Origin: Ceratodon purpureus
Taxonomy: Eukaryota; Streptophyta; Bryopsida; Pseudoditrichales; Ditrichaceae
DNA length: 64,000 bases
Direction of reading: 5' to 3'
Assembly: GCA_014871385.1 (NCBI GenBank)
Contig: CM026428.1
Location: forward strand, 10,694,583 to 10,758,582
The notes under the pieces are model-generated. The model was not told the DNA's origin and made no database searches. It saw only the letters and a list, made by a program, of their open reading frames with translations. Position numbers and translations under genes: made by a program. Positions 45,001 to 64,000 of the stretch are shown here, piece by piece; the first letter of the stretch is position 1, and each line of letters begins with the position of its first letter.

Positions 45001-46454
45001 GAGTCATATATCTCACGTCAAGGGCAGTGACACTTTTTTCATTTGTACTGCAAAAGTCGAAAATCTACATCTACATATTCCACCAGATAGGCTCTCTATT
45101 GTCCATATCTATAAAGCATCTCACTTCACATGGACAACTTCTGAAATGCTTTACTCGTCACTTACAACGTTTAAAAAATATTAGAGAGCTGCGATTATAT
45201 GAATCCAAACTATGCCGTAAGTTACTTAAGTACATAACACTATGTATGAAAGTTGGACGACAATATTTGATAGCATAGATAAATAGATCTGCGCAATGCA
45301 CTCTTAACACATGCAAGGAACAAGAACACGCAAACAACTCAATATATTTTATAGTCACTCTTTACGACGTACCTTCTGATGCATGTCCGGTTTGGTGACC
45401 ACGCTCTTGACGTTGTTGTCATCTCTATAGGCTTCATCAGCCGATATCCTGCAGAGAACGTTCTACCACTTCTCGTTGCTTTCTACACTATAGTGGTCGC
45501 CGTATTTGTTGTTGTCACAATAAGCGTTTTTTTTTTTTGGCGATAGACACTGTGGAAAAGCTAACAAAGTGTGTTCCCTCCAAAAATGGACCAATCCATG
45601 CAATCCCTTCCAACTTCTATTGCCAAAAGAAAAAAAACGTTGGTCACCTTGCGTGAAATCGAGCCCAGGATAGGTGTCATAATGCGTATTAAACTTTTCT
45701 CTTTGACACCATCAGTACTGGACAAGTTACTGAGCACTGTCTGCAGCATACTCTACAAGTTATATTTGTAGATTTCAGCTTATATTATGTTCACGGGGCA
45801 AAAGAGAATGTGATGACACAAAGCTTAGAAGACTTGGAAAGGGCTTTCCAAAATGTCCATATTTGAAATGACACTCACTCCTGAGGTCGTAGATTTCAAG
45901 CGTTCACTGCTCATTGTTGAAAGTGTTCTCAAATAGTACAACACTTGTAGATAAATGTGGAAATCAACAAAATTAAAATGTTATAAAATTCCTCCGTACT
46001 CAAAGATTTACATGCAATTGTGTCACTGCGAGGATTCAGAAATGCACACAATCTCAGAGAAGTAATTCATTACAGAATTTTTCCACTCACGGGACCACCG
46101 GATTGACATGACTTTGACACGTCACTATAGTCCGCTCCGAAATGTGCTGAAAATAATTCCCATCATTCTCTAAGTGGCAAAGGACTTAACGTGGATATCC
46201 TGTCATTTTCCTGGGACAACATTTCTACTAGTGAAAAGGGGTATTTAAGTAATTATGGACAAAACGCTCAATTATGGACTACTTTGCATCATCAGTAGAC
46301 GTCCAATTCATGTGTTATCCCTCAAATTTAAAGACAAAGATGTCAAATATTTATGAAAAAATGCATTCCGTTTACAAGGGATAAAATCATTTGAGTGAAT
46401 TTATTATCATACTGAATAGAGGACATCCCAGTCCCACTGTCATGGCCGAATCTC
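42054..46454. other. Gene-free spacer left of the palindrome-rich block
   Basis: AT-rich DNA. It contains one degenerate TIR element at 43059-43393 (listed separately) and homopolymer T near 45531. ORFs between 43702 and 45771 are short and without motifs. Confidence 0.5.
43059..43393. mobile_element. Degenerate TIR element, about 335 bp
   Basis: The left end AGGGCCGGTTGAGACTATGC and the reverse complement of the right end, AGGGTCTGGTTCAAACTATG, align with a few differences and one indel. An internal reiteration of CAAACTATGCCC follows the left end. No clear target duplication is seen. It is probably an old non-autonomous DNA transposon. Confidence 0.5.
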
Positions 46455-46474
46455 TCGGCGAGTGGCTGACTGAG

Positions 46475-46530
46475 AACCCTAAACCCTAGAAACCCTAAAC
46501 CCTAGAAACCCTAAACCCTAGAAACCCTAT
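46475..46530. repeat. Telomere-like interstitial repeats
   Basis: Three reiterations of a 16-bp unit, ACCCTAAACCCTAGAA, combine the plant telomere word CCCTAAA with CCCTAGAAA. This could be an interstitial telomeric remnant at the left edge of the block. It also matches the plant telo-box promoter motif (AAACCCTAA). Confidence 0.8.
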
Positions 46531-46742
46531 CCTTAGAAATCTATCTGTTCTAATAAAAGGAAATACTTGCTCTGCAAAATGTGGATCTGTGAAGTGAAGC
46601 GGGTGAAGGGAAGATCGTCGGCGACCCGCTGAGTGGACACGACTGCCAGGCATCTCACATTGGGGTGTCCGTCTGTGAGGACTCCGGAGTCGTCGTTTAG
46701 AATGAACAGTATTCACGGTCACAACAAATGGAAGTCCTTTGT

Positions 46743-46761
46743 AGTCGGCTGGCCGCCGACT
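46743..46761. repeat. Palindrome copy (loop TGGCC)
   Basis: AGTCGGCTGGCCGCCGACT: 7-bp arms around a 5-nt centre. First perfect-arm copy at the left side of the block. Degenerate copies precede it at 46455-46469 and 46618-46632. Confidence 0.85.
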
Positions 46762-46831
46762 AGGAGAGCCAACCTCTTCGTCACTGAACCGACCTCTGGA
46801 ATCTGAAATACATATAAAGATGATGTGGAAA

Positions 46832-47218
46832 TAAGTCCTAGTCCTCGTGATAAAAATGATGAGTAAGCTAGTCCTAGTCGGCTATCAGCCGAGTAGGAGA
46901 GTAGGGGCTACTAGTCCTAATGATGAGTAAATAAGTCCTAGTCCTAATGATGCAAATGATGAGTAAGCTAGTCCTAGTCGGCTACCAGCCGAGTAGGAGA
47001 GTAGGGGCTACTAGTCCTAATGATGAGTAAATAAGTCCTAGTCCTAATAATGCAAATGATGAGTAGGCTAGTCCTAGTCGGCTATCAGCCGAGTAGGAGA
47101 GTAGGGGCTACTAGTCCTAATGATGAGTAAATAAGTCCTAGTCCTAATAATGCAAATGATGAGTAGGCTAGTCCTAGTCGGCTACCAGCCGAGTAGGGGA
47201 GTAGGGGCTACTAGACTA
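46832..47218. repeat. 100-bp tandem repeat, about 4 copies, each with one palindrome
   Basis: Successive units are spaced by exactly 100 bp. The word AGTCGGCTATCAGCCGAGT (or TACCA in the centre) occurs at 46876, 46976, 47076 and 47176. Each is followed by AGGAGAGTAGGGGCTACTAG and preceded by AGTCCTAGTCCTAATGATGC-like sequence rich in the words AGTCCTA and GATGAGTAA. High identity indicates recent expansion. It lies 5' of the small ORF at 47392. Confidence 0.92.
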
Positions 47219-47310
47219 GGTCGACGTTGGCAATTAGTCGTCCAGAAAACCCTAGAGAAGTGGATTACTAGAACGTTTACCAGTTTACTAGACGAACTCG
47301 TCGGCTGTCC

Positions 47311-47370
47311 ACTGTAGAAGAAGGTCGCATACTGTAGAAGCAGGACGCATACTGTAGAAGTTAGTCGCAT
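47311..47370. repeat. 20-bp direct repeat, 3 copies
   Basis: Three 20-bp units, ACTGTAGAAG plus AAGGTCGCAT, CAGGACGCAT and TTAGTCGCAT, run directly before the small ORF and end 21 bp from its ATG. They follow a half-palindrome, CGTCGGCTGTCC, near 47289. Their position suggests a 5' UTR or regulatory tandem site. Confidence 0.8.
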
Positions 47371-47391
47371 ATTGTCCAATATTTTGTCGTT

Positions 47392-47913
47392 ATGGTGAGG
47401 CGTGGTAGCAATGTGAGACCACTGGGTTATCAGGAGTCACCGGCTGACCTCGAGGAGCTCCGGCCATGGTATAGGGCGGTGGTCGCCCGTTCTCGCAACA
47501 CCGCCATTCCACGTTTCAAGTACATCACACGCCTTCTGCAGCCAGGTGCGGTGTGGTTTTGGAGTATTGCTCACACCATAGAGTTGTTGGAGATCGCTGA
47601 CGCTTCCGGCATCGCCTTCCCACTGACATTCGAGGAGTCCGAGGAGTCTGAGGAGTCCGAGAGTGTTGGCAGCATTCACTTCAGCCACACAGGGGAGGTG
47701 TCAACGCAGACCATGTCAACGGCAGGGTGGCTCCGCATTGTTGGCGAAGCATACGACAACTTGGAGGGTGCTGGAAGTCGGTGCTCTGGCCAAGATCAGT
47801 GGTGCGGAGGGAACGCAAGCCCGCAGTCCACGTATTCGTCGTTTGGATCCGTGCATCCATCCGTCGATACTGGGTGTAGTGCTGTCCGAGCCAAGTCTAC
47901 TGCGAAGGACTGA
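47392..47913 (+). CDS. Small hypothetical protein of the palindrome-rich block
   Basis: Function unknown; 173 aa from the ATG at 47392. Residues 18-78 (from PADLEELRPW to ASGIAFP) resemble the minus-strand protein encoded at 12418-12888. This is followed by a short acidic repeat (EESEESEESES). The C-terminal third is low-complexity and could be read-through past an unrecognised splice donor. The upstream region carries the 100-bp palindrome array and three 20-bp repeats. It is the leftmost gene of the block and is transcribed toward the end of the minus-strand transposase-like gene. Confidence 0.55.
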   Translation: MVRRGSNVRPLGYQESPADLEELRPWYRAVVARSRNTAIPRFKYITRLLQPGAVWFWSIAHTIELLEIADASGIAFPLTFEESEESEESESVGSIHFSHTGEVSTQTMSTAGWLRIVGEAYDNLEGAGSRCSGQDQWCGGNASPQSTYSSFGSVHPSVDTGCSAVRAKSTAKD

Positions 47914-48225
47914 TCGCTTCATGGCGTTGGCGACCATCTGCAGCTTTTTGGTTTTTTGGCTTTAGGGTGAATTACTGTGTGTTAGAACTGTCCAGCTCGT
48001 TTTCAATAGAGCTGCTTCACACACTCGGATAGTTGTAGAATTCATGGTTAGTATTTGTTACTGAGGCTTTAGGAGTAGTGGCATCTCTGATGTATACACA
48101 ATACAAAGTAACATGTAAAGGGCGGAACACTACCGTTGTACTCCGATAAGAATATAATGAAATGGATAAATATTTTTTCCCAGTTTCTCAAAGCGCATAG
48201 TGGTTCTACCAATGTTGTGGAAAGC

Positions 48226-48356
48226 GTCGGCGGGCAGCCGACTAGAGTAACAGTGTCCACCGTAAAAATCACAGGCCATACAATATAGACCTGCCTCACA
48301 AAGTCACCGTTCATGATGCTTATCTAACATGGTTAGAGGCATCGGCGGACAGCCGA
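48226..48356. repeat. Two palindromes between convergent genes
   Basis: GTCGGCGGGCAGCCGAC at 48226-48242 and TCGGCGGACAGCCGA at 48342-48356, in the spacer between the small ORF and the end of the minus-strand gene. Confidence 0.88.
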
Positions 48357-48547
48357 CGACCACCGAAGAAGGAAAAGTAAGGTATCAGAACAACAAATAG
48401 AAGACAAAGCGTAATACATGACTAGTATTGGGTCAATGGTAGAATACAATTCTTATTCGAGGGAATCACAGTGTTTACAATATTCAACTATAACGTTTAC
48501 AGAGGAAACCATCACTAGCTACATCTTCTAGAGCTAAGATCACAATC

Positions 48548-48564
48548 GTCGGCGGGCAGCCGAC
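48548..48564. repeat. Palindrome touching the stop codon of the transposase-like gene
   Basis: GTCGGCGGGCAGCCGAC. Its last base is the final base of the TAG stop codon (48566-48564) of the minus-strand gene, so it forms the start of the 3' UTR. Confidence 0.9.
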
Positions 48565-51500
48565 TAGTCTTCCTCCTCGTCATTCCAGTTCATCGAGATT
48601 CCATGCGATTCGAAGTTTGCCATGGCAGCAATCACAACATCTTCGGGTATTAGATGGGACTTTGGGGGCCCCTCATGCGTAGTTTTCTTGGTCCTATGAG
48701 TGTATACAACGGATTTACACTCCACCCACTCCGCAAGAGTCAACTCCCTTTCCCACCGTCTTGTCCAGCACTCTCTCGCAACCTTCTTCTTACCTTCCTT
48801 CTTGCCCTTCATCGGAGTCCACCATTCAACCTTGAACTTACCGTAATTAGGACCAGGCTCTGTTATAACAGGCTCTATCGCCCTACCCATCCAAATGGGT
48901 AGGTGGTCTTCCTTACACGGACGACAGAAAACCCAATCGCCACGTAAAACGTCACGATATGGGTTAAACACAGACTTCGGCCTAGAGTTTTTCGGACCAC
49001 AGAAAGGATAGGGCTCCACTTCATCCTCGTCACCGGGACGAATATCCGGATCCGGTATATATTCGTCCTGTGCATCGAATGTGGTGACGTGGTCCCGCTT
49101 CCAGTCTGAGATAGGCCAGAATCCTTCCTGTAAGGTGGCGGAATTGGGGGGCAGTGGCTCGTTGACCTCCTTTAAAATTCGTTCCCAATACAGTACATAT
49201 GGTAACATGTCTTGTGCGTATTTCTTATCCCGAGCCATGCCAGTTCTCCAGTACTCAATGTACTTAGATAATCCACTTTTAATGAAATTTCTCTTCTCTG
49301 AACACTCCGCTGCCCTTGCCACCTCTTTATCCGCGTTCTTCTTGCCCTCATCGACTTCAACACTACCCCATAAGTGCTTATGAGGAACCGGTTTGGGATC
49401 ACCGACGGGCAAACGTGGTTTACCCTCTTTGTCTGCCCTCCACATTTTCACGGGTTTGCCAGGTGGAAGCCATGACGGATCAGTTGCACGCTTCTTGTAC
49501 CTCATTACGGGCCACCCCGCATCCTCCCCATCCTCCACCACATAGAACTTAAAAAGATGCATTTCACTGTGACCTTCTATCGCATTACCTCCGTCGTGAT
49601 GAAAATCAGCAACATAACTTTTGAAGTCTGCCACTTCCTGAACAACCTCTGGAATAAAGGCAACTGTCTTCTGAGAATCCATGAATGCCTTCATAAGGTC
49701 TGCAAGGCAGTATGTGTTCTTTCGCTTAATGAGTTTCGATAGGTGACTGAAGTGGGCGTCGATGTCCTCATGTGTGTGTCCCACAATCAGGAAACCAACT
49801 GTAACTTCCTTGAATATTCGCCTCGCCGTCAGCAACGAGCAGAATGCTAGGAGAAACCGGTTCTTGTTGTCCTTCGCAGAATTGTCAAGCTGGAGATACA
49901 ACTTCTTCGGCAAAGGAACAGCAGGCCTACCAGGCAGAGGTGGAGTGAGTGGCTCATCTCTAGAAGGTGGAATTGAGGGGATGCAACGTGACGATCCATG
50001 CATTAGCGCTGCAAAGAATTCATTCTGTGGCGGTGCCTCGAAGAGTGCTTTTGACTCCCGGACAGGTAGTCTCTCCAAGGCACGGAATACCCTGCACAAC
50101 GAGGAGATTGTGAAATTTGGGTCTCCTGGCCACAGGGCAGTTGCATAGTGTGCGTAGGCGCCATCTCCGTGACCGTGAGTCAGCATTCCAGTACAGGAAA
50201 TCGGAATTTGACCAAGCCCTGCCGTAGCCTTCGTGATACGTTGCATGCGGGGGATCGCTGTTTTCGATGTGTCCATCTTATCATGTATGATGCATAGGAA
50301 CTCAGTAGGACTCTGTATAGATTGGGTTGTCCATCCGTAATAAATGTTGCGACAAGCTCGCTGATAGTTCAAATGCCTGGTCCTATCCTCTGTCAAGCTC
50401 TGCCACTCGTCCGACCCTCTAGGATACTTGGCAATGAGTTCAACGAGGAAGTCACACTCAGTGCACTTGGAGAAATTACTTCCTACGGCCTTGACCTCAA
50501 CGTTGCGGAAGTACTCCTTCCTCATGCGACTAACGGAGGACTGCGAAATCAGCTTCGCGTTGCACTGCTCATTGACCTGAATAGCACAGAGTGAGGTCGA
50601 TCAGTTGGGAAGTTCGTCATCCAGTCGGCGGGCAGCCGACGATAGTAATCACTACAATTCAGTAAACTATCCAAAGTGAAAGAAGATGAGGAGGAACTTA
50701 CGGCGTTGGCCATTTCGCGCATGTGATTCCAGTTCATCGCAGACGGGAGTACTTTGAGCGCGGCCACTCTCTTCTTGCCAATCATCCGAAACTCATTGGG
50801 CATTTGGTCGGCATTCTCATTAACGATAGTGGTCAACGTCGCGCGGGCCTGGATTGTGTGAATCTGGGGACGATGTACACCGGAATTTCCGTGACTCCCA
50901 CTGACACGACCACTTCGGGCCGCAGCCTTGTAGCTGTAGTACGCGGATTTCGATACTCCGTGAATGATATACCACGCCACTTCACATACGTCAACGTTCG
51001 CAAGAGTAACATAGAGCTTCCGCTTGCCGGGTACAGTATGTAAGTGCCCTTGCACAGCGAAGGACATCTCTCGCCTCGCCTGGAATGTTGTTGCGTAAAA
51101 TTTACGCCGAATACTCACAGTATCTTCCCATCTAAAAGTCTGGCAACATCGGTCCTTGCAACAGCGCTTTGAGCTCTCTAAGCGGCATTCAGCAGGGACA
51201 ACCATTCGACGAAGCTTAGTGGAAGAGACGTCATCTTTTTCGCGGACTTTCCTCCGCACCGATCGATAGGCATTCTTCGGGACACCATCCAGACCATCGT
51301 CCGCGTCGGCGTCTGCTAAATTCTCGGAGCAGTAAGTAATTATATCAGAGAGGAGGTGACCCCCTTCTAACCGAGCGTGAGTCAGACGCCATCTGAGAGT
51401 TGTCATCTGCAGATGATCGTCTTCAGAGACGAAGAGAACCCCAACCTCTGTATCCCCTAGGACTTCATCATCACATGCCTCGTCCGGTAAACATACTTGA

Positions 51501-52474
51501 ATCATTGCTCTACCACGGACTGATAGATCATCATTAAGAAGTTCGACATACCGATTTCTCCAGAGGTGGCGGTCAGGATAAGAAGCATCTGGAGTGGAAG
51601 GAATACCCGAGGTCCCGGAATCCGGACCCCAACAATGATCATCTGTTTCTACGTCGGATTCCCCTTGATTAGACACATCGTCGTCACTGCTGATATTCAT
51701 TGGAGACCTAGTCCCCAGATCCTGCTCAGACGGAGCGGAGTTGCTTTCATCAATTTCTTCATCTTCGTTCCCCAAGTGAGGCTCCGTCGGCGGGCAGCCG
51801 ACGGGACATGTGCCAGCCAACGCGCCGTTCACAAGTGGACAGACCTTGTATCCACTCCAAAGTACCAATCGCCCCACAGCACACCCGATCGTTAACACAT
51901 CCGGTAACTCGCAGAAAGCAGGTGTTTCAGAGAATTCTGGATTGACGGACGACACTCTCACTATTAGAAAGAAGTTGTGAGGAATCAAGAACCCCTCCCA
52001 CGTTCCTTTAGGAGAGCACTCCATAATGACTCCAGCGGCAACACAACGCTTTGAGCCTCCGGATTCCTCGAGGAGCGCAACTTCCATCTGCTCTGCGAGG
52101 TCCAGGAATTCTTGAACGGGCTTGACATCGTCTTCAACATCCGTCGGCGGGCAGCCGACGGCCTTGATGTCATCGTCTTCCACCTCTCCGAAAGGCCTGA
52201 GGTCGGCCGCCTCCCACAATATCATTTGTCCTAAGCAGTTGCTCAAGGACTTCGCACCCTCATCCGGAAATGGTATATTCATTTCCATGCTGTCTGAAAC
52301 CTCAATCACTTTTACCACCACCACTATAGGATCAAATTCTACAACACGTTGGATCACTGCCCTGCCTGCATAATAGAGCCCAGAATGAGTAAGGGCCACG
52401 ACAACGCCCTTTTTAACCTTCCACCGCCCTGATCGGCCATTCCTTAGAAACGTCTGGATCGGCTCTACTTCCAT
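48564..52474 (-). CDS. DUF7869-type RNase-H-fold transposase-like protein
   Basis: Likely the mobility protein of the block. Two exons, 52474-50702 and 50576-48564, flank a 125-bp GT-AG intron and join in phase 0 to give about 1261 aa. The ATG at 52474 (MEVEPIQTF) is the first in-frame ATG; upstream sequence is open to 52564 without an ATG. The N-terminal half has two related beta-rich modules (about residues 18-96 and 145-220, each ending LW...P) vaguely like plant DUF8039, and an acidic linker. Next are a Cys cluster (KRCCKDRCC) and an HTH-like segment (VCEVAWYIIHGVSKSAYYSY). The catalytic-type part has KCTEC (Cys629, Cys632), IIHDKMD (Asp690), LYLQLDNSAKDNKNR (Asp822) and VGHTHEDIDAHFS (His858, Asp862, Asp864), the hallmark of DUF7869 proteins. 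Two palindromes lie in exon 1, coding VGCPPT. Catalysis is inferred from motif layout. Confidence 0.8.
50624..50640. repeat. Palindrome in the intron of the transposase-like gene
   Basis: GTCGGCGGGCAGCCGAC within the 125-bp intron (50577-50701). Confidence 0.9.
51784..51804. repeat. Palindrome inside coding exon (VGCPPT)
   Basis: A 21-bp copy: 8-bp arms CCGTCGGC/GCCGACGG around GGGCA. On the minus strand it encodes P-V-G-C-P-P-T-E in frame. Confidence 0.92.
52141..52161. repeat. Palindrome inside coding exon (VGCPPT)
   Basis: A second 21-bp copy identical to that at 51784, encoding A-V-G-C-P-P-T-D in the same frame of the minus-strand gene. It lies in the acidic linker after the first N-terminal module. 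Confidence 0.92.
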
Positions 52475-53483
52475 TGGATAAGAGATGAAGACCTCGTCGG
52501 CGGACAGCCGACAGGGTCGACAGGAAGTGTCCCCGCCGACGGAGTAAAATGTATCCGCCGACAACGAAGACGACTCGGCGGGCAGCCGACGCGGATCCTA
52601 CGACTCGGAGTGTGCACAGAAATAGCATCCGCCGACGATGACGGACACGTCCGCCGACAGAAATTGCAGGGGACCTGAGTCGAGAAGCAGTATGATGTCC
52701 CTAACCTGTCCAATCAGAGACTCCTCTCAACCGTCCAATTAGAAACGATAGACGAAGAGAACAGAAACGGCAACAGAAGGTGCGGGACAGTTAAGCACAT
52801 GCGGGAATAATAACGGTCCTCTCAGGAAACGTGTGCGTCAGGAGCACTCTCAGAGGGAATCGAAAGTGCAATGACAGAAATAGAATGAAGTATGCGCATC
52901 TGACGGGGGGTTAGTTATGAATTCCCAGGAGTACAAATTGGCGCCAAAATCGAATTCAATTTTGCGCGCCTTGGACAGATCAAGATCCCATCATGGCGGC
53001 GAGATGCCCCCGCCGTCACAGAACAATGTTGGTTCATTATTACGAATTTGAACGTGGCGATTGGAGCAGCTGTCATATCACATGCGCAGGCCATCATGAC
53101 TGGGTGACGGATTGAAAAAAAGTCAAAAGACGTCCCATCATCATCCTACGTGGCGTGATGGGACGGATGTTAGGGATGACCATCCATGCATGGATGGTAT
53201 GTACATAGCCATACGTCATGACCCATCGGGCGTGACGATTCAGTCTCGGGAGGTGGGGGTCTGCAGGGTATACACCCGCCACTCCCGACATTTCCTCCTC
53301 ATTTCCAGCCTTCTCTTTCTCAGCTCTCTTTTGTCCTCTTCTCAGCGCTCCGCAGAGGTCGCGTCGGCTGCTAGGTTTTTCTGCGTCGGCTGCTAGGGTT
53401 GAGGGCGTCGGCTCCTTCACCTGCGCGCGTCGGCTGCTGTTCGTGGATCATCCGCCGACGGTGAAAGGCCATCCGCCGACGAC
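52475..53483. promoter_or_regulatory. Divergent intergenic region of the element
   Basis: About 1 kb between the divergent transposase-like and ParB/methylase-like genes, so presumably both promoters. Near the minus gene are palindromes at 52496-52512 and 52575-52589 and several half-sites (CCGCCGAC). Near the plus gene there are reiterated GCGTCGGCTGCTAGG words at about 53358-53400. An 18-bp perfect palindrome, CCATCCATGCATGGATGG (53180-53197), contains the RY-type word CATGCATG. A CTACGTGGCG word lies near 53148. No TATA box can be assigned confidently. Confidence 0.5.
52496..52589. repeat. Two palindromes in the 5' leader of the transposase-like gene
   Basis: GTCGGCGGACAGCCGAC at 52496-52512 and TCGGCGGGCAGCCGA at 52575-52589. 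If the ORF were extended upstream through the first copy it would be read as CRLSAD, not V-G-x-x-P-T, which supports a start at 52474. Confidence 0.88.
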
Positions 53484-56400
53484 ATGGCAGCCTCCGAGAG
53501 TGGGTAAGTTGTCCAGTCGGCAGTCCGCCGACGCTCCCCTTCTTGAGTCCTTCAAGTTTTCAATTTCTCGCCTGGGTTTGTCCCTCCCGTCGGCTGTCCG
53601 CCGACGCCACCCCTTCTTTTGTCCTTCATGTTTCTGCTTTCTCGCATGAGTTTGTTCCTCCCGTCGGCTGTCCGCCGACGCCACCCCTGCTTTTGTCCTT
53701 CGTGTTTCTGTTTTCTCGCATGAGTTTGTCCCTCCCGTCGGCTGTCCGCCGACGCCGTGACCCCTTCTTTTGCCCTTCATGTTTTGTGTTCTGGCGCATG
53801 GGGTTGTTCCTCCGTCGGCTGACCGCCGACGCCACCCCTTTCTGAGTCCTTCATTTTTCTATTTTCTCACATGGGTTATTCCCCCCGTCGGCTGTCCGCC
53901 GATGGGGAGGGCGTGTCCATCCGCCCCGTCGGCTGTCCGCCGATGGAGTGAAAATCTGATGGTCTAATCTTGTGATTCTAAATTTGCAGGGCGAAGGTCG
54001 ACTCCACCGCAAAACCGAATGGGTTACGGTGGCTATGTGACAAGGTTGTTGATCCTAAAGTAGAAATACTCGCACGGGGCTTGAAACCGAGGGTGACATT
54101 CCTCGCTAATTCGAAGATAACGGAGTGGGGCATCACCTGGCGTGACACTCCCATGTCGCTGGGCTTCGTGACCAAAATAGGTCAGAAGCAAATGGCAGGT
54201 GGACCAAGATTTGAGATTATTGGTTCCAGGGAATGCGACGATGACGACAACGTGTTCTTGGTGTTTGCATCGGTTCCTGTCGCGGAGGGCACACCAGTGG
54301 ACTGCTTCGCGGTTGTAATTCCGGTTGAGAAGTGTATGGACGACTTGTGCTCTAAAGAAGTACAGGATGCGGCTACTTGGGGCAGGGGTGAGAACATAGC
54401 TGTTGAACAGATACTGGACGTGATTGATACGCTCGGGGACAAAGTGATGGTAGAGAGGACGAAGAACTTGGTTAAGCCTGCAGCAAAGAAAAGAGGCGGC
54501 CGCAAGTCTGCTGTAGAAGCGGGCACTGGTACAGTCACCCCCGAGACCGGAGAGACACAGACGACAGGGGAGTCATCGAGAAGGAAGAAGGGAAAGGCAG
54601 CGGCTGCTGAGGGCGAGGGTGGGAAGAAGAAAGGTGGGAAGAAGGAAGAGAAGAAGCAGACCGTGGCGGAAGCTCTCATGCTCGCAAACAATCTCACTTC
54701 CAAAACAAAGGACACCGACGTCCTTGCCATGTACCAGACGTTGGAGGAGGGACTTGGGCACTGCTTCCCCAACGGGCAACGTGCCCTTCCTTGTCAGATT
54801 CCATATAACAGAATACACATAGCTCCCGACGAATTCAAGTACAGAGCGATATTCAGGAAGAGGCAGGATCAGATAAGTCTTTTCTACAAAGGACTTGGAG
54901 CAATCCGGAAGAAGCCCGAGCTGTACTGCCTTCCTATGAGTGGTGACCCCAAAGTAAAGGATCCAGTGACGGGCGAGATTATTAAGCTTAAAGGCTTGGA
55001 AGGACTTCTTCGACCTTGGATGGCCCTAAATATCAAGTATTCACTTAGACAGGATGACGGCAAAGATAAGCTGGTACCTTGGTATGAAGATGAGGGCATC
55101 CACTGGTACATAATTGGGGGCCAGCACACGTTTGAGGCTTGTCGAGAACTGGGAGAGAAGGAACCACTGGACTCGCCTATGCGGCAGTATTACCTTAACC
55201 ACGATATCATTCCTGTATATTCTGATGACAAGGATACCCTCATAAAGGTCTCTAACGCATTAAACATCGAGGTGAAGGATAAAGTCGCCGAAGTAAGTTT
55301 CAGGTCCCAGCTGGCGAAGATGCGTGCTAAATGGATCGAGCGGGGGAGGATCGACAAGAAAGATGACTACAGCGCATGGAAGGTAATTCACATCTTCCTC
55401 TTTTCCTGTTGTTTCCAAGTAGTTGAAAGTCGTCGGCGGACAGCCGACGCTCAAGTGGTTCTCCGTATTGCCGAAGTGGGATTTATTTATCAATGTCATT
55501 TTTTTCTTCCTTGCAGGAGTTCTGCAAGGAGTACCTCAGTCCGATTCTCGGAAAGTCCCCTACATCCCAAACCTTCAAGTTGCCCTTAGTCTTCGTGTCT
55601 GACGAAACATACAACGAGTGGCAACTGGTGTTCGACGCCTGGGAGGAGGGGAGGATCATCGGGGAGGACGGACTGAAACCAGGATTTCCCCCAAAGCCAG
55701 CCCGCCGGGACATAACATTCAACGACATGCAGTACGTGATCGGTCTTCGGGACCACGAATGCAAGAGGCTGGCCAAGGAAATTCTGGACCTTAAAATGTA
55801 CGTCAAGGTCACTGGGAAAGAGGTGGTTCAACGGGATGGAACATCAGTGGAGAATTGGTGTAAGCGTGTGAAATTCGAGTATATTGTCCGGAACGAGCTC
55901 ATGTGTATTTACAGGGGCTTTGCACTGAGGAAACCAGGGACTGGGAAGCAGATTGAGTGGACCATGGATGACTGGAATTCCCTTGAAGTCGAGAAGGGGT
56001 TCAATGATACAATGGTTAGTAATATTCGGGCTGACTTGGAAGATAGTCCTGAGGGGAAGGAGTGGCTTAAGGGACGGAATCATCCGCTCACGCCGTTGCA
56101 AGTGCCAACTCCAGAATTCTTCAAAGACATTGTGCAAAAATACTGGAAGTCGGATGTGGACCAGTCTTCGCAGTCGTCTGTACAGTTCGATGTTCGGATT
56201 GCACAGGACCTGGGTGAAGTGTGCACAGCTCTTGACGTTCGCGGAGCATTCTCCTTCAACAAGGCGCAGTATGAGATGTTCGTGGTCTTTGGCTACGATC
56301 CAGCGGGAAAGGAGATGCCTAACATGCGACAACAACACGTTATAACTGTCGCTGAGAGGATTCACCGTGAGGTGGAGGAGGAGGTCATTCTGGATGGGGA

Positions 56401-58167
56401 GGTAGATACAATTAAGGTGAATAAGCTTGTCACCCCATCCTTGTGGCTACTCGATGCTGAGTGTAATCACACTCTTCAAGGCGTGTCAAGGCTGACGAGT
56501 AATTCGTGGACGGTTCATACTATGCACTACTTCCCTGATAGTTCCGCCGGGTTTCAAAGGAGTTCTCTCATTGACTCTAGACCCAAGGTTCATGTGTCCG
56601 TTATGTATCCAAGAACAACGCCCGGGGATGCATGGAATACCTTCTCGGACTTCACTGGTTTGAAACGTCCGCTTCCTCCCTATGTGGACGAAGGAGAAGA
56701 TCATCTTGGGGAGGATTGGTCAAATGGTCACTGCCACGCTAGTTTCTCTTTCCTCCAATCTCTTCTGGAGAAAGCGATGCAGATTGAGGACGTTCGGGTG
56801 ATCAATTGCTGGGGAGGGGGGAACGTCACGGCCCTCGCTCTGGTAAGTTAGTGCAGTCTCTTCTGGTGCCTTCGCTGTTTGCTCACCGATCGTCGGCTGG
56901 CAGCCGACGCTCATTGAATCCTTCGTGTTTCTTGGGCAGAAGATGTCCTTAACCGTTTCGTCTTGTTCTGCTGCAGAAAAACCATTTGACTGTAATTGAG
57001 ATCGTGCGTACCGAGGAAGAGAGATACGAAGCGCACTGTCCGGTTCGGAATATGACGTTCATTCCTGGCGTTTATAACGTGCCCGTCCAAGCTCCAGTTC
57101 AGACCACGCAGTCTGGGGCCGGGCCGTCTGTCCCCGCCTCTGCTAGAGGCAGGACTGGCTCTCTCACGGCTGCCGACTTGGGTGTGAATGCGGAGGAGGC
57201 CCATTTGGTCGGGAAGGGTGGATGTATGGGTTTGGGGAAGACTGCGGGGGTTCGCTCACAGATTTTTCAGGACTCCGACGACGATGTCGACGAGGAGCCA
57301 CCAGATGTACCCGACCCAGACGTTGAAGATGAAGCTGGAGATGGTGAGGAACAGCCAAGAAACGAGGACGACCAAGCTGAGGCTTTCATTGCAACTGGAG
57401 ATGCAGAGGTAGAGGAGCGAGACACGCAGGAATTAGACTATGAACCAGAACCCGACGAATTACCACTGGAAGAATCGAATCCTCGTTACGTGAACCCACC
57501 GCTGTCGCAAGTTCTACGGGAGACCGGAACTGACTCTCTCAGCTTCGGTATTATTTCTCCTACATTTCAAGAGCAGGGGACTCCTCCCGCCGAGCCAGAA
57601 CGTGATTTAGACCAGGCGGGGCGTCCAAAGAAGATGCAGGTTCCTCTAGCATCGAGGCCTGACGATGAAGTGGTTCGCCGTGTCCAGAAGCCAACCCAGG
57701 AGCCTGCAGTGAGCATTGAAGGGCATGTTCCTCCTGCTGCCGTCGGCGGGCAGCCGACGGCAGACGAGCAAACCTCATCTAACCCCTCTGCCAAGACCAA
57801 GTTGACAGGGAAGTCAATCGCATTCGTCACTCAAGGTGTGAAGGGCGCAACTCGGATGATTGGCCCGGATGAGAACCCTCTGGTGTATACACGATCAATG
57901 AAGAGAAGTAAGACCGATGGTACTGCGCAGGATTCCTCTCTTGTGGGTAACTTATCCCGTGATTCCTCAGGGGTTCAGGAAGGGGAGGAGTCCTCTGGGA
58001 AGGGCAAACGGAAGGCTGCTTCGAAGAAGACTTCCTCCAAGAAGGGCACATCTGGGGAAGAGCACATGAGTCCCAAAAATGTGGACGCTCCACAGGACGT
58101 TCTGTCACCTGTGCGGGCATCCAAACGGGAGCCTAGGCCGAAGAAGCACAAAGGTGGAGGTCAGTGA
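53484..58167 (+). CDS. ParB-like / DNA-methylase-like fusion protein
   Basis: Probable DNA-binding protein of the element; activity unproven. Exons 53484-53503, 53990-55382, 55517-56842 and 56977 onward have GT-AG borders and join in phases 2, 0 and 0. Reading on to the TGA at 58165-58167 gives about 1309 aa; an AATAAA follows at 58269. The start is ATGGCAGCC, then MAASESGAKVDSTAKPNGL across the first junction. Lys-rich stretch at about residues 207-229. A ParB/sulfiredoxin-like region at about 275-430 contains WYIIGGQHTFEACREL (GGQH 383-386) and DIIPVYSDDKDTLIKVSNAL. Residues about 885-930 (SLLEKAM, VRVINCWGGGNVTALAL, then NHLTVIEI across the third intron, then EERYEA) resemble motif I and its acidic partner in N6/N4 methylases of permuted order. 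No DPPY-type motif is visible upstream, so it may be catalytically dead. The acidic C-terminal part contains palindrome-encoded VGGQPT (1169-1174). A phase-1 donor at 58160 can instead join the HAD module at 58400. Confidence 0.7.
53516..53943. repeat. About 74-bp tandem repeat filling intron 1, 7 palindromes
   Basis: Palindromes at 53516, 53589, 53663, 53737, 53814, 53888 and 53929, mostly GTCGGCTGTCCGCCGAC, with centres AGTCC and TGACC in two copies. Spacing is 73-77 bp for the first six. Between them the unit reads CCCTTCTTTTGTCCTTCATG then TTTCT and CTCGCATGAGTTTGT. The array makes up almost all of the first intron (53504-53989) of the ParB/methylase-like gene. Confidence 0.92.
55431..55449. 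repeat. Palindrome in intron 2 (loop GGACA)
   Basis: CGTCGGCGGACAGCCGACG, beginning 48 nt into the 134-bp intron 55383-55516. Confidence 0.93.
56891..56909. repeat. Palindrome in intron 3 (loop TGGCA)
   Basis: CGTCGGCTGGCAGCCGACG, a perfect dyad around one central base. It begins 48 nt into the 134-bp intron 56843-56976, the same length and offset as in intron 2. Confidence 0.93.
57740..57760. repeat. Palindrome inside coding exon 4 (VGGQPT)
   Basis: A 21-bp copy with 8-bp arms, encoding A-V-G-G-Q-P-T-A in frame in the disordered C-terminal part of the ParB/methylase-like protein. Confidence 0.93.
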
Positions 58168-58331
58168 ATCAGGCGGTGGCCCAGTCCATCTTTTAAATGC
58201 CTGCATTGATAATTTAGTGTAGTGATCGGGCTCTAGGATTGTGTTAGATGTTTGTACTGCCAAATATGAATAAATTTTCGGTAAATGCCAAGTTGTACGC
58301 TTTCCCTTTTTTCAAATAATGTTGCTTGCAA

Positions 58332-58348
58332 GTCGGCTGTCCGCCGAC
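58332..58348. repeat. Palindrome in intron 4 / 3' UTR
   Basis: GTCGGCTGTCCGCCGAC between the TGA at 58167 and the acceptor at 58399, so intronic or downstream depending on splicing. Confidence 0.9.
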
Positions 58349-58399
58349 CGTCATCCTAACCGTCACGTTTGTCCTCTGCTTCGTTTTCTGTCACTCCAG

Positions 58400-59169
58400 A
58401 GTCCGCGGACAAGGAAGTCCATGGAAAACTTCACGAAGATAGACCCAGTGCAGTTCTGGAGCAGGGACCTCCACCTCTGAATCCACTTCACATAGCCCCG
58501 GAACAGGCTGGTACTCAGGTACACGATCCAGTGCTGAAGTACTTTCTTGTTCTGGATATTAACGGCCTGCTATTAGTCCAGACGAAGCAGGGTACTAGGT
58601 GGAATACTAAACTTAGACCGGGTTTAGAGAGGTTCCTAGAGTTCTGCCTGGACAATTTCGAGGTGGTCTTCTGGAGCTGCGTTCAGGAAAAGAGGTTTCA
58701 GATTCTGTGGAAAGCGTTGCAGCAGCGCTGTCCTCGTCTAGATGCCGAAGTGCGCTACAAGTTCGACCAGAGTTTCTGCGAGACTTGCGTACATAAGGCT
58801 AGTAGGGAGTTTTATTTGAAGAGACTCCAGACCCTCTTTGACCTCGATGACGGGCTGAAGGGGACGGGGGCGTCTTCAATTAACACTCTCTTGGTTGATG
58901 ATTCCCCTTATAAGAATGTGGCAAACACTCCTTGGAACGCTGTGCACCCTACACCATATACCTTCGAGTCGAAGGAGTCGGAAAGTAAGAGGAATTATCT
59001 GCTTGGAGAATTGATTCCTTGGCTTACCAGTTTGAAAGAATCCAAACTCCCCGTGCCCGAGTACTGCCAGAAACATTCCGAATTCGGTCAGCGTCGTCTG
59101 TTTCCGGGGGATGAAGCTTATAGTCTCTTCTCTCCACACATTGATTGCCCTAAACGAAAGAGAACATAG
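58400..59169 (+). CDS. HAD/NIF (FCP1-like) module 1, probable alternative terminal exon
   Basis: Similar to NLI-interacting-factor/CTD-phosphatase-like HAD proteins. The exon starts after CTCCAG at 58399 and has no in-frame ATG before the domain, so it is probably spliced from upstream. Donor 58160 (GAG|GTCAGT, phase 1) joins it exactly in frame, giving a 1563-aa ParB/methylase/HAD protein. The module has KYFLVLDINGLLLV, in which the HAD motif DxD is D-I-N, then LRPGLERFLEFCLDNFEVVFW and LLVDDSPYKN, ending in a basic tail CPKRKRT. Loss of the second motif-1 Asp suggests no or altered phosphatase activity; a D-x-N-G form is, as I recall, also seen in some plant proteins of this family. AATAAA follows at 59258, and a palindrome (TCGGCTGACAGCCGA) lies at 59211-59225. 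Confidence 0.7.
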
Positions 59170-59210
59170 TAGATGTAGAAACTGTTTTAGAGAGCATGCA
59201 CATGATTCAG

Positions 59211-59225
59211 TCGGCTGACAGCCGA
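59211..59225. repeat. Palindrome in 3' UTR of HAD module 1
   Basis: TCGGCTGACAGCCGA, a perfect dyad around the central base, 42 bp after the stop and shortly before AATAAA. Confidence 0.9.
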
Positions 59226-59426
59226 TGGGATCTTCATGTATTTAGACTTTTACAGTAAATAAAGTTTTCCTCCTTTTAAATATATGAGAACGGAACTCAG
59301 TGTCGAGACTGTGTATTCTGTCGTGGGTGTCTTATTGTGTCTCCATTTGTACACTAGAGCAAGTATGAATTGTGAGCATGCGATTGATCACCGGAATTTT
59401 CTTGGAATTTGTCCTTCATTTTTCAG

Positions 59427-60524
59427 GAGTCACTGGAGGATGACGCTGAAATTAAAGTGCACCAGGGACCTTCCCTTCTTAGTATGCTCTTGGAGGAGTA
59501 CCCAACATCTCCTGATGGTGATGCTCTCAGAGAAGAGTCTCCGGGAGCGGAAGCCGAGAATGAAAGTGATGGGGAGGACGAGTACGACTATCCAGTCGGC
59601 GGGCCGCCGACGCTGTCTGCTGCACATAGCTCTGGCCGGTGTGCGATGGCTTCCACCTCGTTCGTCGAGACCAACGTCGCGATCCCGCGCACCGGTTCCC
59701 CGCGCGATGATTCCGTCAGTGTCAGCACTGATATTATTGCGCGTAATATTGAGGTACCTCTCCAACGATACTACCTTGTCCTTGACATTAAGGGATTGCT
59801 CATCGCGGAGCACCACGGGTATATCGGTGATGACCAGAAGACAAAAATTCATATCCGGGCTAGACCAGGACTTCTTTCATTTCTAGAGTTCTGCACGGCA
59901 AATTTCGAGGTAGTCTTTTGGTCCACGGTTTCTGAAAAGAATCTCGATCGTCACTTCCAGAAGCTGTTAGCCATTCATCCTTTGCTCAGGAGCAATTACA
60001 GACGCCTTCCAGGATTCTGGTGTGATATCTCAACAAGGACTAATCCGCATGGGAAACGGGAGTACTTGTTGAAGCGTCTGGATAGACTTTTCTGCGACAC
60101 TAGGCTACTGGCTCGATCAGGTGCCACTGTCCAGAATACCCTACTGGTAGACGACCGCCCTTATAGGAATGTACTTAATCATCCATTTAGCGCTGTCCAT
60201 CCTAATTCTTTTTTCTGGGACTCTGCAGAGTGCAAAGAACCTCAACCCACCCCCAATCCCTATTTAACTAGGGTAGTTACACCATTCCTTGCAGGACTTA
60301 AGCAGTCTGGATTGGATGTCCAGGAGTATTGTAGGAGGAATTCTAGCGTGGGGAAGCCACGTCTTTTTCTAGAATCTCGCGAATACCAGAAGTATAGGGA
60401 GGTTATTCCTTCTCATGCATGCGGGTTTGACGTCCCGGGTGATCCTGGATCTTGGTTTGTGAATTTACCTTGTCCTCCGGAGGCCCCTGGTAGTTCCATC
60501 GTCGGCGGGCAGCCGACTGATTAG
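59427..60524 (+). CDS. HAD/NIF (FCP1-like) module 2
   Basis: Second copy of the module, 366 codons from an acceptor (TTTTTCAG at 59426) to TAG at 60524. An in-frame ATG at 59484 could be an independent start. It contains an acidic lead, then RYYLVLDIKGLLIAE (the second motif-1 Asp is Lys), IRARPGLLSFLEFCTANFEV, VFWSTVSEKN and LLVDDRPYRNVLNHPF. Two palindromes are coding: 59595-59611 (VGGPPT) and 60501-60517 (VGGQPT), the latter forming the C-terminus just before the stop. A phase-0 donor word, GAG|GTACCT, at 59754 lies just before the HAD core and could join module 3. The true 5' exon is unresolved. Confidence 0.65.
   Translation, partial: ESLEDDAEIKVHQGPSLLSMLLEEYPTSPDGDALREESPGAEAENESDGEDEYDYPVGGPPTLSAAHSSGRCAMASTSFVETNVAIPRTGSPRDDSVSVSTDIIARNIEVPLQRYYLVLDIKGLLIAEHHGYIGDDQKTKIHIRARPGLLSFLEFCTANFEVVFWSTVSEKNLDRHFQKLLAIHPLLRSNYRRLPGFWCDISTRTNPHGKREYLLKRLDRLFCDTRLLARSGATVQNTLLVDDRPYRNVLNHPFSAVHPNSFFWDSAECKEPQPTPNPYLTRVVTPFLAGLKQSGLDVQEYCRRNSSVGKPRLFLESREYQKYREVIPSHACGFDVPGDPGSWFVNLPCPPEAPGSSIVGGQPTD
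59595..59611. repeat. Palindrome inside coding exon (VGGPPT)
   Basis: GTCGGCGGGCCGCCGAC in HAD module 2, same frame as the other coding copies. Confidence 0.9.
60501..60517. repeat. Palindrome forming the C-terminus of HAD module 2
   Basis: GTCGGCGGGCAGCCGAC encodes V-G-G-Q-P-T, followed by Asp and the TAG stop. Confidence 0.92.
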
Positions 60525-60814
60525 AGCCTACATCATCGGCGCCACTAGTTTTAAAAATCACATATGATACTCTGCACTCTTTAGTTTAATACGCTAAGAC
60601 TGTTCCCTTTCTGAACTTCCCTGCACCACACAATTGTTTCCAGTGCTGCAATTCGGTACTTCTTTTTGTAGATGCATGCATGACATTTCACTTGCTGCAC
60701 ATTTACCTTTGAGGTTTCTTCAATGCATCGACGACTTTGAATGTAGTCCATTTCTTTCATATACTTCGTCCTGTTCCTTGATTTCCTTCACTGATTGCAT
60801 TTCATATTCTTCAG

Positions 60815-61492
60815 GGTTCCTCGTTTTATTTCAAATGCCTTCACGGTCCACCTCATCATGTCAAGAAATGTATTGTCCTATGCGTCAATGGCCTTCTCTG
60901 CTATGTGGATCCCAGGATAGAGGCTTTGCCATGGGATACGCATCGGAATGTAGTGAAGCGCCCAGGTTTGAAGAAGCTTTTCGACATGCTTTTCTTGCAT
61001 TTCCATGTTGGTCTGTGGTCGAAGATGCCCTTGGGAGAACTGAAGCCTTTACTCACACATATTCTGCCGGCCGGTGTAATGGAGAGGTTGTCCTTCGTGT
61101 ATAGCAGAAGTGACCTTATCGACCGGGAGAATTTCCCCTGGAGTTATAAGACGTTAGGTCAAGTTTGCTCCAAGGTACAGTCTAGAAACGTCTGCAAACT
61201 AGATCAGGTGCTATTTGTGGATGTTGACCCGAGGTCATTGAGGAGGACACCAAACTGTATGTGCTACATTCCTTGGCCTTTTCAGGGTCATCTAAACTTT
61301 CCGAACGATGACGGCGTTATACCTAACATTGCTACAGATATCCTTCCTCTGGTTTATCCCTTGCACAAGTTCGGATCTGTACCGGAGTATATGGCGCAGG
61401 CGTGTAGGCCGGGGCAAGTGCACTGGGCAATTGAAGCTGCGAGAAAGTTTGGACGTGCACGAGTGGACTGGACTGAAGTTTGCTGGGACTGA
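60815..61492 (+). CDS. HAD/NIF-like module 3, strongly degenerate
   Basis: Third, most diverged copy. An acceptor (ATTCTTCAG) at 60814 opens a phase-0 exon of 226 codons to a TGA at 61492. The alignment to modules 1 and 2 is VKKCIVLCVNGLLCYV (motif 1, the nucleophile Asp is Cys), VVKRPGLKKLFDMLFLHFHV, GLWSKMP and QVLFVDVDPRSL. The end resembles module 1 in position (VPEYMAQACRPG versus VPEYCQKHSEFG). It lacks a plausible own ATG before the domain, so it needs an upstream exon. It cannot be an active HAD phosphatase by the usual mechanism. Palindromes follow at 61560 and 61781. Confidence 0.6.
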   Translation, partial: GSSFYFKCLHGPPHHVKKCIVLCVNGLLCYVDPRIEALPWDTHRNVVKRPGLKKLFDMLFLHFHVGLWSKMPLGELKPLLTHILPAGVMERLSFVYSRSDLIDRENFPWSYKTLGQVCSKVQSRNVCKLDQVLFVDVDPRSLRRTPNCMCYIPWPFQGHLNFPNDDGVIPNIATDILPLVYPLHKFGSVPEYMAQACRPGQVHWAIEAARKFGRARVDWTEVCWD

Positions 61493-61559
61493 GTTAGGCG
61501 GACTTTTTCGCCTCCAATTTGCACTTCTTCCCTCCTCCTGACCAACAGAACACCTTCCA

Positions 61560-61795
61560 TCGGCTGCCCGCCGACTTGGTCGACCCGTTTGTGCGGCCTT
61601 CAAATATATGATTTACTCATTGACCTTACGGCTATGCTTTCAGGGAAATAGTTTTCAGAGTAGGTTATAATGTGATAGGATTTACGTGAACTTGGTACAT
61701 AGTGCTGGGTGTAGACTTAATGTTGTAGGACTTCAGGACTCAAAGTGCTACGGGACTAGTTAGTTTAGCGTGTTCTATTATCGGCGGGTCGCCGA
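61560..61795. repeat. Two right-hand palindromes
   Basis: TCGGCTGCCCGCCGA at 61560-61574 and TCGGCGGGTCGCCGA at 61781-61795 lie downstream of the last HAD module. A degenerate copy, TCGGCGGTCCGCTGA, follows at 62006-62020; beyond it I see none. Confidence 0.85.
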
Positions 61796-62020
61796 CTCTG
61801 TATTGTACATTTCATTACTTGAATCAACATGATATTCTTTAAAGTATTCATTGTAACTCTTATTCTGCATTATATGTCGCAATCTTCGGGTTCATATATC
61901 CATCACTGGCAAATTCCGCCCATGCACATCTCGATGTCTAGTTTTGCATTTCATATTCTGTGGTATTCATGTACAATGACACTGTTCATCTGTGGTCTCC
62001 ATCCATCGGCGGTCCGCTGA

Positions 62021-64000
62021 GTTCGCATTGGTCATTTTTGAATTCTGGACTTTTTTTTGTCCAGAATTACCTAAATATCCCTTTGAAGTATTGAAACCAA
62101 AAAAACACATTCAGTTTTTTTTAAACATTTAAATAAATATATATATATATGGGTTTAATTTTTCAAATCAATGAAATTAATTCAATATTAACAAAGAATT
62201 AATTTAAATCACTCTAGAGCAACTTGAAGTGCAATTTTCACATCTCAAAAAATTTAATCTAAGTTAAGTGGCAATGCAAACCATTTATTTTTAGAACAAA
62301 TTTGAGCTTAATGATTTGATTTTAAAAATCATCAGATTCCATCCATGATATTTGACCCAATCATGTAAGATATTTATTTTCATGAGATTATTATTCCAAT
62401 TCATCAATCTATACGATACTGGAATGAAATTTGTATATACATGATGAAATTTGTATTTACATCGCATATATACAGATGATACTTAATGAATTTTGAAATG
62501 GTACCTGATGAATAAAGAGTTTCATCAATTTTGAAATGTACCTCATTGAATGAAGATATTCATTTACATATACATGATGTAAATACAAATTTTATTGATT
62601 TTGAAATGGTATTTGATAAATTTTAAAAAATCATGTGAAAATCTTTTATTCAAGTTGTAAAATGAAGAACCAAATTAAAACTATGTTAGATTTTCAATAT
62701 GCACAATTCTACAATAAATCTTTCTCATTCAAAGGTGTTTTTTGATTAAGACTCTTTAAAATTCTTACAATATTTCTAAATATTTACAATTGAAGTTCAT
62801 TAGAGCAAATCAAATCAAATAAAATGTGGCTACTCTTTGCATCTTAATGTTGTAAACTTTAATAATGCCCTTCTCATGTCTAAAGAAATTAATTAAAAAT
62901 AAAACACTTGTATAAAAATAAAATGACAAAATTAATAAACTTATATTATGAAGGAAGATAAGAAAACATTTCTCTGATGACATTTATATGAGTAATTATT
63001 TAAAGATGGCATGATTAATTTTAAACTAAGATTTTGTTCAATAAACTATAGAAGGAAGTTGGCTTTTAAACAAATTGGAATGATTTTTTTTTAATTATAC
63101 ATATTTATAGTCCTTAAAGATTTCATGTTTTATATATTATATAACATAAAAAGACACAAGTATGATTGAAAATTCTTGACAACTTCAATAGTTAATTATT
63201 TGATGATTATTATTATTTTTAAATTGGTCAAAGAACTTAAAAAACAATTCATAATAATATATAAAATTGGGCTTAAAATTAATTCAATAAAAAAAAGTTA
63301 TGCAACCATCCAAATAATTATTTAGACTTTAAAATGTTTGTTGCTTGTTTTATCTAAAATTCATGATTATATTCTATGCATTGACTTTTCTTTTTACTTT
63401 CTTCATCTTCCAATACTTATTTCCAACATTGTTTGTTGTTGTGTATTAAATTCATCTTTTTTGTAAGATATTGTAGTGGAGTATAACATAATGGCAAGGC
63501 ATGTATTAAATAAAAGATCATAATTAACATATTACAAAGTACTAAAACATGTATTAAATAAAAGATCATAATCAATATATTACAAAGTACTAAAATATTT
63601 TAGCATAGTTTAAATATGCAAAGAATTCAAACTATGATAACATTCAAAAATATTTCTTGAATTTTTTTCTTATAATTTTGCATCTTTCCAATCAAGTAGG
63701 AAGCTACAATATATAGTTTAAAAACTTTGATTTGTATAAGATGTTTTAGAAATCTTATTTGTTAAGGACTTGCATAAACTATACATCTTTTAGTATATTT
63801 TCATACCAAACATGGTCAATATTTTAGACAAGTTACATATAAAAGAACTATTAGATTCCCTAAATTTCAAAGTTTTCACTTTAAATTTAAAAATAAAAAA
63901 AATTAATTTAATAAGTTAAAAAAATATGCCATTTTATTTTTGTGCATACTTATGTAATTATATTGGTTTTTTCTATTGTGAAGCTTGGAAAAATCAAAAT
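62021..64000. other. AT-rich spacer right of the block
   Basis: Very AT-rich, no genes and no palindromes of the block, so composition changes sharply at about 62.03 kb. Loose reiterations of TGATGAAATTTGTATTTACA occur near 62430-62620. Confidence 0.6.
63500..63595. repeat. 48-bp tandem duplication
   Basis: Two nearly identical 48-bp units start at 63500 and 63548 (CATGTATTAAATAAAAGATC...). Confidence 0.85.

Follow-up and report, generated by a model that had tools for sequence, protein, structure and literature searches.

A multicopy DUF7869 transposon of the moss Ceratodon purpureus carries a lineage-specific palindrome along its length

A 64,000-nucleotide stretch of the genome of the moss Ceratodon purpureus (NCBI GenBank assembly GCA_014871385.1, contig CM026428.1, forward-strand positions 10,694,583 to 10,758,582; the whole stretch is termed the window, and plain coordinates refer to it) contains a 15,848-bp transposon at 46236–62083. 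The element comprises a gene for a DUF7869 protein, a gene for a 1,309-amino acid (aa) protein, three HAD/NIF modules and a small open reading frame (ORF), interspersed with many copies of the palindrome GTCGGC-N5-GCCGAC. An earlier reading of the letters alone, henceforth the sequence-only reading, had proposed a gene-carrying mobile element at 46455–62020 that is marked by its own palindromic repeat, and this proposal is borne out by the many copies, 4-bp target duplications and inverted ends described here. The element has spread in multiple copies with 4-bp duplications, and its palindromes are non-random, mostly noncoding and lineage-specific. New relative to that reading are a 17-bp form of the word with 8-bp arms, miniature elements that carry it, and different words in other DUF7869 lineages. 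We consider it probable that the element is a recently active, autonomous cut-and-paste transposon that is moved by its DUF7869 protein and whose dispersed palindromes are bound by a protein of its own.

Alignment of copies and their flanks located the ends of the element. Both borders are flanked by the target-site duplication TGAA (46232–46235 and 62084–62087, plus strand). Copy alignment and an end-pattern scan located a left terminal inverted repeat, AAGGGGTATTTAAGTAATTATGGACAAAA, at 46236–46264 on the plus strand and its right counterpart, AAGGGATATTTAGGTAATTCTGGACAAAA in minus-strand reading, at 62055–62083; the repeats are imperfect, about 25–29 bp long and of the form AAGGG...CCCTT. 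The sequence-only reading had regarded ends and target duplication as not visible, but both are present just outside the block that it delimited. The sharp change that it placed at about 46.4 and 62.0 kb is real as a compositional block, with a G+C content of 0.498 within 46236–62083 against 0.386 in the rest of the window, although the true borders lie at 46236 and 62083. Telomere-like repeats, AACCCTAAACCCTAG, occupy 46475–46529, just within the left end.

Genome-wide counts, here and below, cover 362.5 Mb in 151 contigs, with the window on contig C8. Border queries that extended beyond the originally proposed limits gave 267 and 234 first-look candidates, and the best 40 of each were scored. 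All 80 matches span the full query at 99–100% identity, i.e., the genome holds at least 40 left and at least 40 right ends, which is incompatible with a single-copy block. The end pattern itself occurs 359 times (186 + 173, miniature elements included), while a backward control returned 0. Among the fetched loci, 12 copies had both ends present and readable, and a 4-bp target duplication was found in 12 of these 12 end pairs, compared with 4 of 132 mismatched pairings; the pair L007/L055 was excluded from this test, its left flank being N. Judged by the coordinates between query matches, two of the 12 paired copies deviate in length (about 11.3 kb on C11 and 21.9 kb on C13), so full-length intactness is not universal among copies.

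A detailed comparison with the copy on contig C5 revealed 82 substitutions and 3 indels across 15,748 aligned bases. Of the three indels, two are 7-bp insertions that interrupt the transposase exons of the C5 copy; each consists of a 4-bp repeat, 3 bp and a 4-bp repeat, a form expected from excision scars of an element that duplicates 4 bp, although this is suggestive only. The substitutions are clustered, with seven in 27 bp at 55048–55074, and 47281–49929 is nearly substitution-free (one substitution, at 47979, plus one 7-bp insertion in C5), as if segments had been exchanged by conversion or recombination. Mobility of the element is well supported by the near-identical ends, the 359 end patterns, the 12 of 12 duplications, a miniature element and the footprint-like insertions.

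The two long genes are transcribed divergently. The DUF7869 gene (48564–52474, minus strand; modeled exons 52474–50702 and 50576–48564) encodes a predicted 1,261 aa, and its second exon matches PF25273 (DUF7869) with E = 5e-44 and 150.6 bits at a cut-off of 26, in agreement with the sequence-only reading; a palindrome lies in its intron at 50624. N-terminal to the DUF7869 domain, a CC-x3-C segment and a segment VDVCEVAWYIIHGVSKSAYYSYK are recognizable in an alignment with the related proteins of loci L075, L077 and L081, and we read the latter segment in this alignment as helix-turn-helix-like. In a sequence alignment alone, acidic residues in the motifs IHDKMD, QLDN and GHTHxDID are invariant across five DUF7869 proteins.

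The second gene (53484–58167, plus strand; modeled exons 53484–53503, 53990–55382, 55517–56842 and 56977–58167, with GT/AG introns) encodes the 1,309-aa protein, which had been described as a ParB/methylase fusion. This identity is not supported: the ParBc and N6_N4_Mtase profiles had no match at E<=10 on spliced pieces, and WYIIGGQHTFEA only loosely resembles what we take to be a ParB/methylase-type motif. With single exons as queries, there was no match below E 0.16 in Pfam and PHROGs or below E 0.89 among PDB sequences, and none at all in NCBIfam; in Pfam at E<=10, a 937-aa spliced piece had no match and a 229-aa piece matched only FlbD, at E 0.058 and under the cut-off. In tblastn searches, the 243-aa part that had been taken for ParB found no phage match and only plasmid matches of E 0.1 or worse. 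Within the host genome, the best 150 of 552 candidates for this part were scored, at 81–100% aa identity, and 123 of these 150 are stop-free (counted by eye).

Downstream on the plus strand follow three HAD/NIF modules, identified by Pfam with E = 3e-13, 1e-9 and 2e-5, which confirms the three degenerate HAD modules already noticed. Active HAD proteins have D-x-D as their first catalytic motif. Since the corresponding motifs here are D-I-N (58400–59169), D-I-K (59424–60524) and C-V-N (60816–61492), the last two of them degenerate, all three modules are probably inactive. The first module lacks a methionine and could be joined in frame to the 1,309-aa gene by a possible splice at 58159–58400; for this reason, the three modules may serve that gene as alternative final exons. 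The resemblance to prokaryotic mobile-element cargo that the sequence-only reading had suggested was not substantiated, as the HAD modules match the NIF/C-terminal domain-phosphatase kind and the 243-aa part has no phage or plasmid relative (no scan of prokaryote genomes was made with it). The previously noted small ORF lies at 47392–47913 on the plus strand (173 aa), without a family match in profile scans. No viral relatives were found in three viral-contig scans, two with single proteins and one with an alignment.

The palindrome occurs in the window at 18 exact sites, or 31 when up to two mismatches are allowed, all at 46454–61796. The reported number of about 29 is thus right if inexact sites are counted, and the reported absence from the other ~48 kb is exact, as none was found there. 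In 100 shuffles, no exact palindrome appeared. The hexamers are separated by 5 bp in all 18 exact sites, and exact pairs with any other spacer from 0 to 11 do not occur in the window. For most sites the consensus extends to GTCGGCKG-N-CMGCCGAC, i.e., 17 bp consisting of two 8-bp arms and one central base. Under the gene models, 26 of the 31 sites are noncoding, although coding sequence makes up 68% of the element (P 4e-9); collapsing arrays leaves 22 places, 17 of them noncoding (P 2e-5). All four introns in the two gene models hold at least one palindrome, and the five coding sites encode short peptides of the VG-x-P/Q-P-T or VG-G-Q-P-T kind. The fixed spacer, symmetric consensus, noncoding bias and presence in each intron suggest that the palindrome is a selected DNA site.

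Site and repeat listings show several local concentrations. A left cluster at 46454–47193 includes four 100-bp tandem units, each with GTCGGCTAYCAGCCGAG, and the first intron of the 1,309-aa gene holds an array of seven sites at 53516–53944, spaced by 73–77-bp steps with a last step of 41 bp. Single half-sites crowd the divergent promoter: on the transposase side, two 22-bp pairs of CCGCCGAC lie at 52533–52658, and on the opposite side, four GTCGGC at 22-bp steps and two CCGCCGAC 21 bp apart lie at 53363–53480. Such 21–22-bp steps correspond to about two helix turns and would suit cooperative binding.

Across the genome, GTCGGC-N5-GCCGAC has 2,858 exact sites, compared with 3 for a backward control. 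The sites listed, all on contig C1, fall into blocks spaced like the sites of this element, except for one solitary site (C1:2805555), which lies inside a miniature element; the palindrome is therefore not scattered evenly. These miniature elements, about 390 bp long (L067, L072), represent a third end type and have their ends and the palindrome in common with the large element. Each contains two palindromes: the one near the left end, 57 bp in, is perfect, and the one near the right end, about 47 bp in, is degenerate. In the two copies whose flanks were compared, L067 is bordered by GTAT on both sides (4 bp), whereas L072 is better described by a 5-bp TAAAT than by a 4-bp duplication. The palindrome is perfect in 51 of the 78 places that have its anchors, compared with 36 of 73 for a neighboring control stretch (Fisher P 0.050).

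Relatives of the DUF7869 protein are abundant in the same genome, where PF25273 yielded 1,397 candidates; the best 150 were scored and all exceeded the cut-off, while 0 of 14 control genomes matched. Repeated palindromes were sought at eight DUF7869 loci (the window copy, the C5 copy, L075–L079 and L081), six of which carry one. A second lineage in this genome, represented by L075, L076 and L077 (6.8–8.0 kb read at each), has the word TTAGCTCAC-N-GTGAGCTAA or close forms. Perfect TTAGCT-N7-AGCTAA sites number 21, 5 and 16 at these three loci, all outside the DUF7869 ORF; in 20 shuffles, run for two of the loci, no palindrome exceeded 2 occurrences for L075 or 1 for L076. The proteins of this lineage are 33% identical to the window protein in the C-terminal part and about 27% in the N-terminal part. 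Genome-wide, the second word has 631 exact sites (backward control 0); of the five clusters listed, all but C3:20697253 have a scored DUF7869 match at a distance of 2 to 10 kb. Second-lineage sites also occur in 26-bp and 54-bp arrays, and a 1.4-kb sample of second-lineage cargo (L080) consists of AT-rich simple repeat.

A third word came from L081 (CADCWO010000071.1, 4.3 kb), the one relative confirmed among the matches listed in a contig scan of other assemblies. Its protein is 48% identical to that of L075 and 31% identical to the window protein. Six sites lie within two mismatches of TTAGCT-N7-AGCTAA, all of them noncoding, compared with a mean of 0.125 and a maximum of 2 in 200 shuffles. 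The two best, TTTAGCTCGA-C-TCGAGCTAAA and TTTAGGTCGA-G-TCGAGCTAAA, have the outer bases of L075 and different inner bases. The contig is labeled as an uncultured Synechococcales cyanobacterium yet carries a plant-type DUF7869 transposon, and for that reason it is probably moss DNA contaminating a metagenome-assembled genome. Palindromes are thus a feature of some DUF7869 lineages, in which the one-base-center symmetry is kept and the sequence has changed along with the protein, a pattern based on three words in three lineages, too few to test co-divergence formally.

Several known superfamilies do not accommodate the element. VANDALs are Mutator-like, and Mutator/VANDAL membership requires 7–12-bp target duplications instead of the 4 bp seen here. 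CACTA elements end in CACTA...TAGTG, compared with AAGGG...CCCTT, and the element ends fit neither the 5'-TG...CA-3' termini nor the 40–270-bp terminal inverted repeats of Ginger. The best filing is Sola-like, by which we mean that the element appears to work like Sola as described, rather than that membership is proven. In the available excerpts, Sola elements are DDD transposons of 2–9 kb, some >15 kb, with 4-bp duplications, and are known from Physcomitrella (PMC10741241; also a table in PMC9033089); Sola2 has 12–21-bp ends, AT-rich 4-bp duplications and, in some cases, captured genes (PMC3627910). Compared with Sola1 of Physcomitrella and Sola2 of social amoebae, the element agrees in its 4-bp duplications (12 of 12 end pairs) and in its short imperfect ends of about 25–29 bp, within a reported and variable range of 11–1124 bp. 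It further resembles Sola elements in that some of them exceed 15 kb, some carry captured genes and they are known from a moss (excerpts of PMC10741241, PMC3627910 and PMC9033089). It differs in its dispersed lineage-specific palindromes, of which the excerpts of these three papers make no mention. By duplications, ends and size, as far as these excerpts go, the Sola kind fits, contrary to the earlier statement that no described plant transposon with this set is known.

Assignment to an unnamed superfamily instead is a possibility to which we give a minor share. The term DUF7869 was found in no paper of the literature search, whose scope left out most subscription journals, and Sola was compared by description only; on the other side, the AT-rich 4-bp duplications, short imperfect ends, length above 15 kb and moss host all fit the excerpted Sola descriptions (PMC10741241, PMC3627910, PMC9033089). 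Among the literature matches listed, no title on moss ParB/methylase, Ceratodon, palindrome-bearing large cargo or Sola-palindrome transposons describes the element, and it is quite possible that it has been described before as an unnamed repeat or a Repbase entry.

In the mechanism that we favor, the DUF7869 protein would be the transposase of a probably autonomous element, recognizing the ~25-bp inverted ends and inserting the element into AT-rich targets via a 4-bp staggered cut. The 17-bp palindromes would be binding sites of an element-encoded dimeric DNA-binding protein. Its most likely identity is the N-terminal part of the transposase, with its CC-x3-C and helix-turn-helix-like segments, because the transposase gene is the only gene seen in all three palindrome-bearing lineages. 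Once bound, the protein might tag the element from end to end, pair its termini or sustain its expression, and the half-sites phased at 22 bp might allow it to regulate the divergent promoter. A word particular to each lineage would direct each protein to its own copies and their miniature derivatives, whereas the 1,309-aa protein and the HAD modules would be accessory genes.

Some observations weigh against this mechanism. Tandem duplication has multiplied some of the palindrome sites. On the 51 miniature copies that have both stretches, the palindrome scored 35 against 29 for the control (P 0.29), so that it has fared no worse than its neighborhood and support for selection on it there is only borderline. 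No repeated palindrome was found at L078 (7.8 kb) or in the 2.8 kb upstream of L079. The former (C12:9848600–9856400) has a DUF7869 gene that is 47–48% identical to L075–L077, with neighboring N-terminal ORFs, and is possibly an old, decayed or host-recruited copy. Finally, as the second-lineage loci and L081 were read only in part, a second reader protein could be shared among the lineages. Upstream of the typical 879-aa DUF7869 ORF at L079 lies a tandem-repeat-like stretch of CATATGTC-type words (L079:1285–1650).

Two plant systems invite comparison. CACTA (En/Spm) transposons have many subterminal TNPA sites, some of which are kept in miniature derivatives, together with CACTA ends and short duplications. 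The element would share with them the many copies of an element-specific protein-binding repeat; CACTA sites lie at the ends, whereas those of the element are spread along its whole length. By analogy, VANC proteins of VANDAL transposons provide the nearest working model. They are reported to recognize a short word located in introns and in noncoding sequence between genes and at the element termini, and their target arrays grow through tandem duplication and differ among related VANDAL families (PMC5735166; PMC10398659). The Arabidopsis system thus resembles the element, as far as the excerpt goes, in a lineage-specific short word across noncoding parts, introns and upstream regions, in growth by tandem duplication and in words that differ between related families (PMC5735166). 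It differs in that the VANC21 word YAGTATTAY is non-palindromic and in that VANC has the DUF1985/DUF287 domains, neither of which was matched in the element proteins scanned (Pfam, E<=1 for ORFs and E<=10 for spliced pieces).

This analogy raises the alternative that the reader is the 1,309-aa accessory protein, which would strip silencing marks from its own element in VANC-like fashion. The layout resembles that of VANC targets as excerpted, with noncoding sites in introns and promoters, tandem arrays and a family-specific word (PMC5735166), and a palindrome array lies in intron 1 of the gene for this protein. We nevertheless consider this reader unlikely, given that palindromes adjoin a DUF7869 ORF without such a gene in L081 and the parts read of L075–L077, and given the unmatched VANC domains. 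Less probable still, the palindromes could be without function, as a by-product of duplication in tandem or as a satellite that happens to be palindromic. The two window arrays, with units of 100 bp and ~74 bp, are simple tandem repeats, and second-lineage sites lie in arrays as well, but 22 places remain in the window after array collapse, 17 of them noncoding, and the sister lineages have other words with the same one-base-center symmetry. Binding by host AP2/ERF (DREB) factors, with the element borrowing stress-induced host expression, is very improbable: GCCGAC is the core of the dehydration-responsive element and is present in each half-site, including those at the divergent promoter, but the symmetric fixed spacing, the element-wide sites down to coding linkers and the unrelated sister-lineage word TTAGCTCAC speak against it.

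Returning to binding by the transposase itself, marking or anti-silencing would, by analogy with VANC, be the purpose of the palindromes. More tentatively, moss DUF7869 transposons might have a self-recognition code, in which each lineage's own one-base-centered palindrome is read by its own protein, marking the whole element against silencing and mobilizing both it and its miniature derivatives; the words would be placed in introns and promoters, at the ends of genes and even within coding linkers. If true, the VANC principle would have arisen independently in a superfamily unrelated to the VANDALs, and site and reader would have diverged together. How a transposon comes to be recognized by its own proteins but not by those of related elements is of general interest, and few plant systems are available for studying it. 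A multicopy family that has a very clear site and miniature derivatives, together with sister lineages whose sites have changed, makes the co-evolution of site and reader directly testable in a moss, and DUF7869 gains a likely role as transposase that is supported by element ends and target duplications.

Scans of the window for RNA families and tRNA genes gave no match. Outside the element, the window carries a host gene resembling FAE1/type III polyketide synthases in two exon-sized ORFs (37544–39607; Pfam E 9e-82 and 3e-29) and an ORF of the dienelactone hydrolase family (19517–20263; Pfam E 7e-26). A short ORF at 24764–25231 matches DDE_Tnp_4 (PF13359, E 1e-5), a trace of another transposon.

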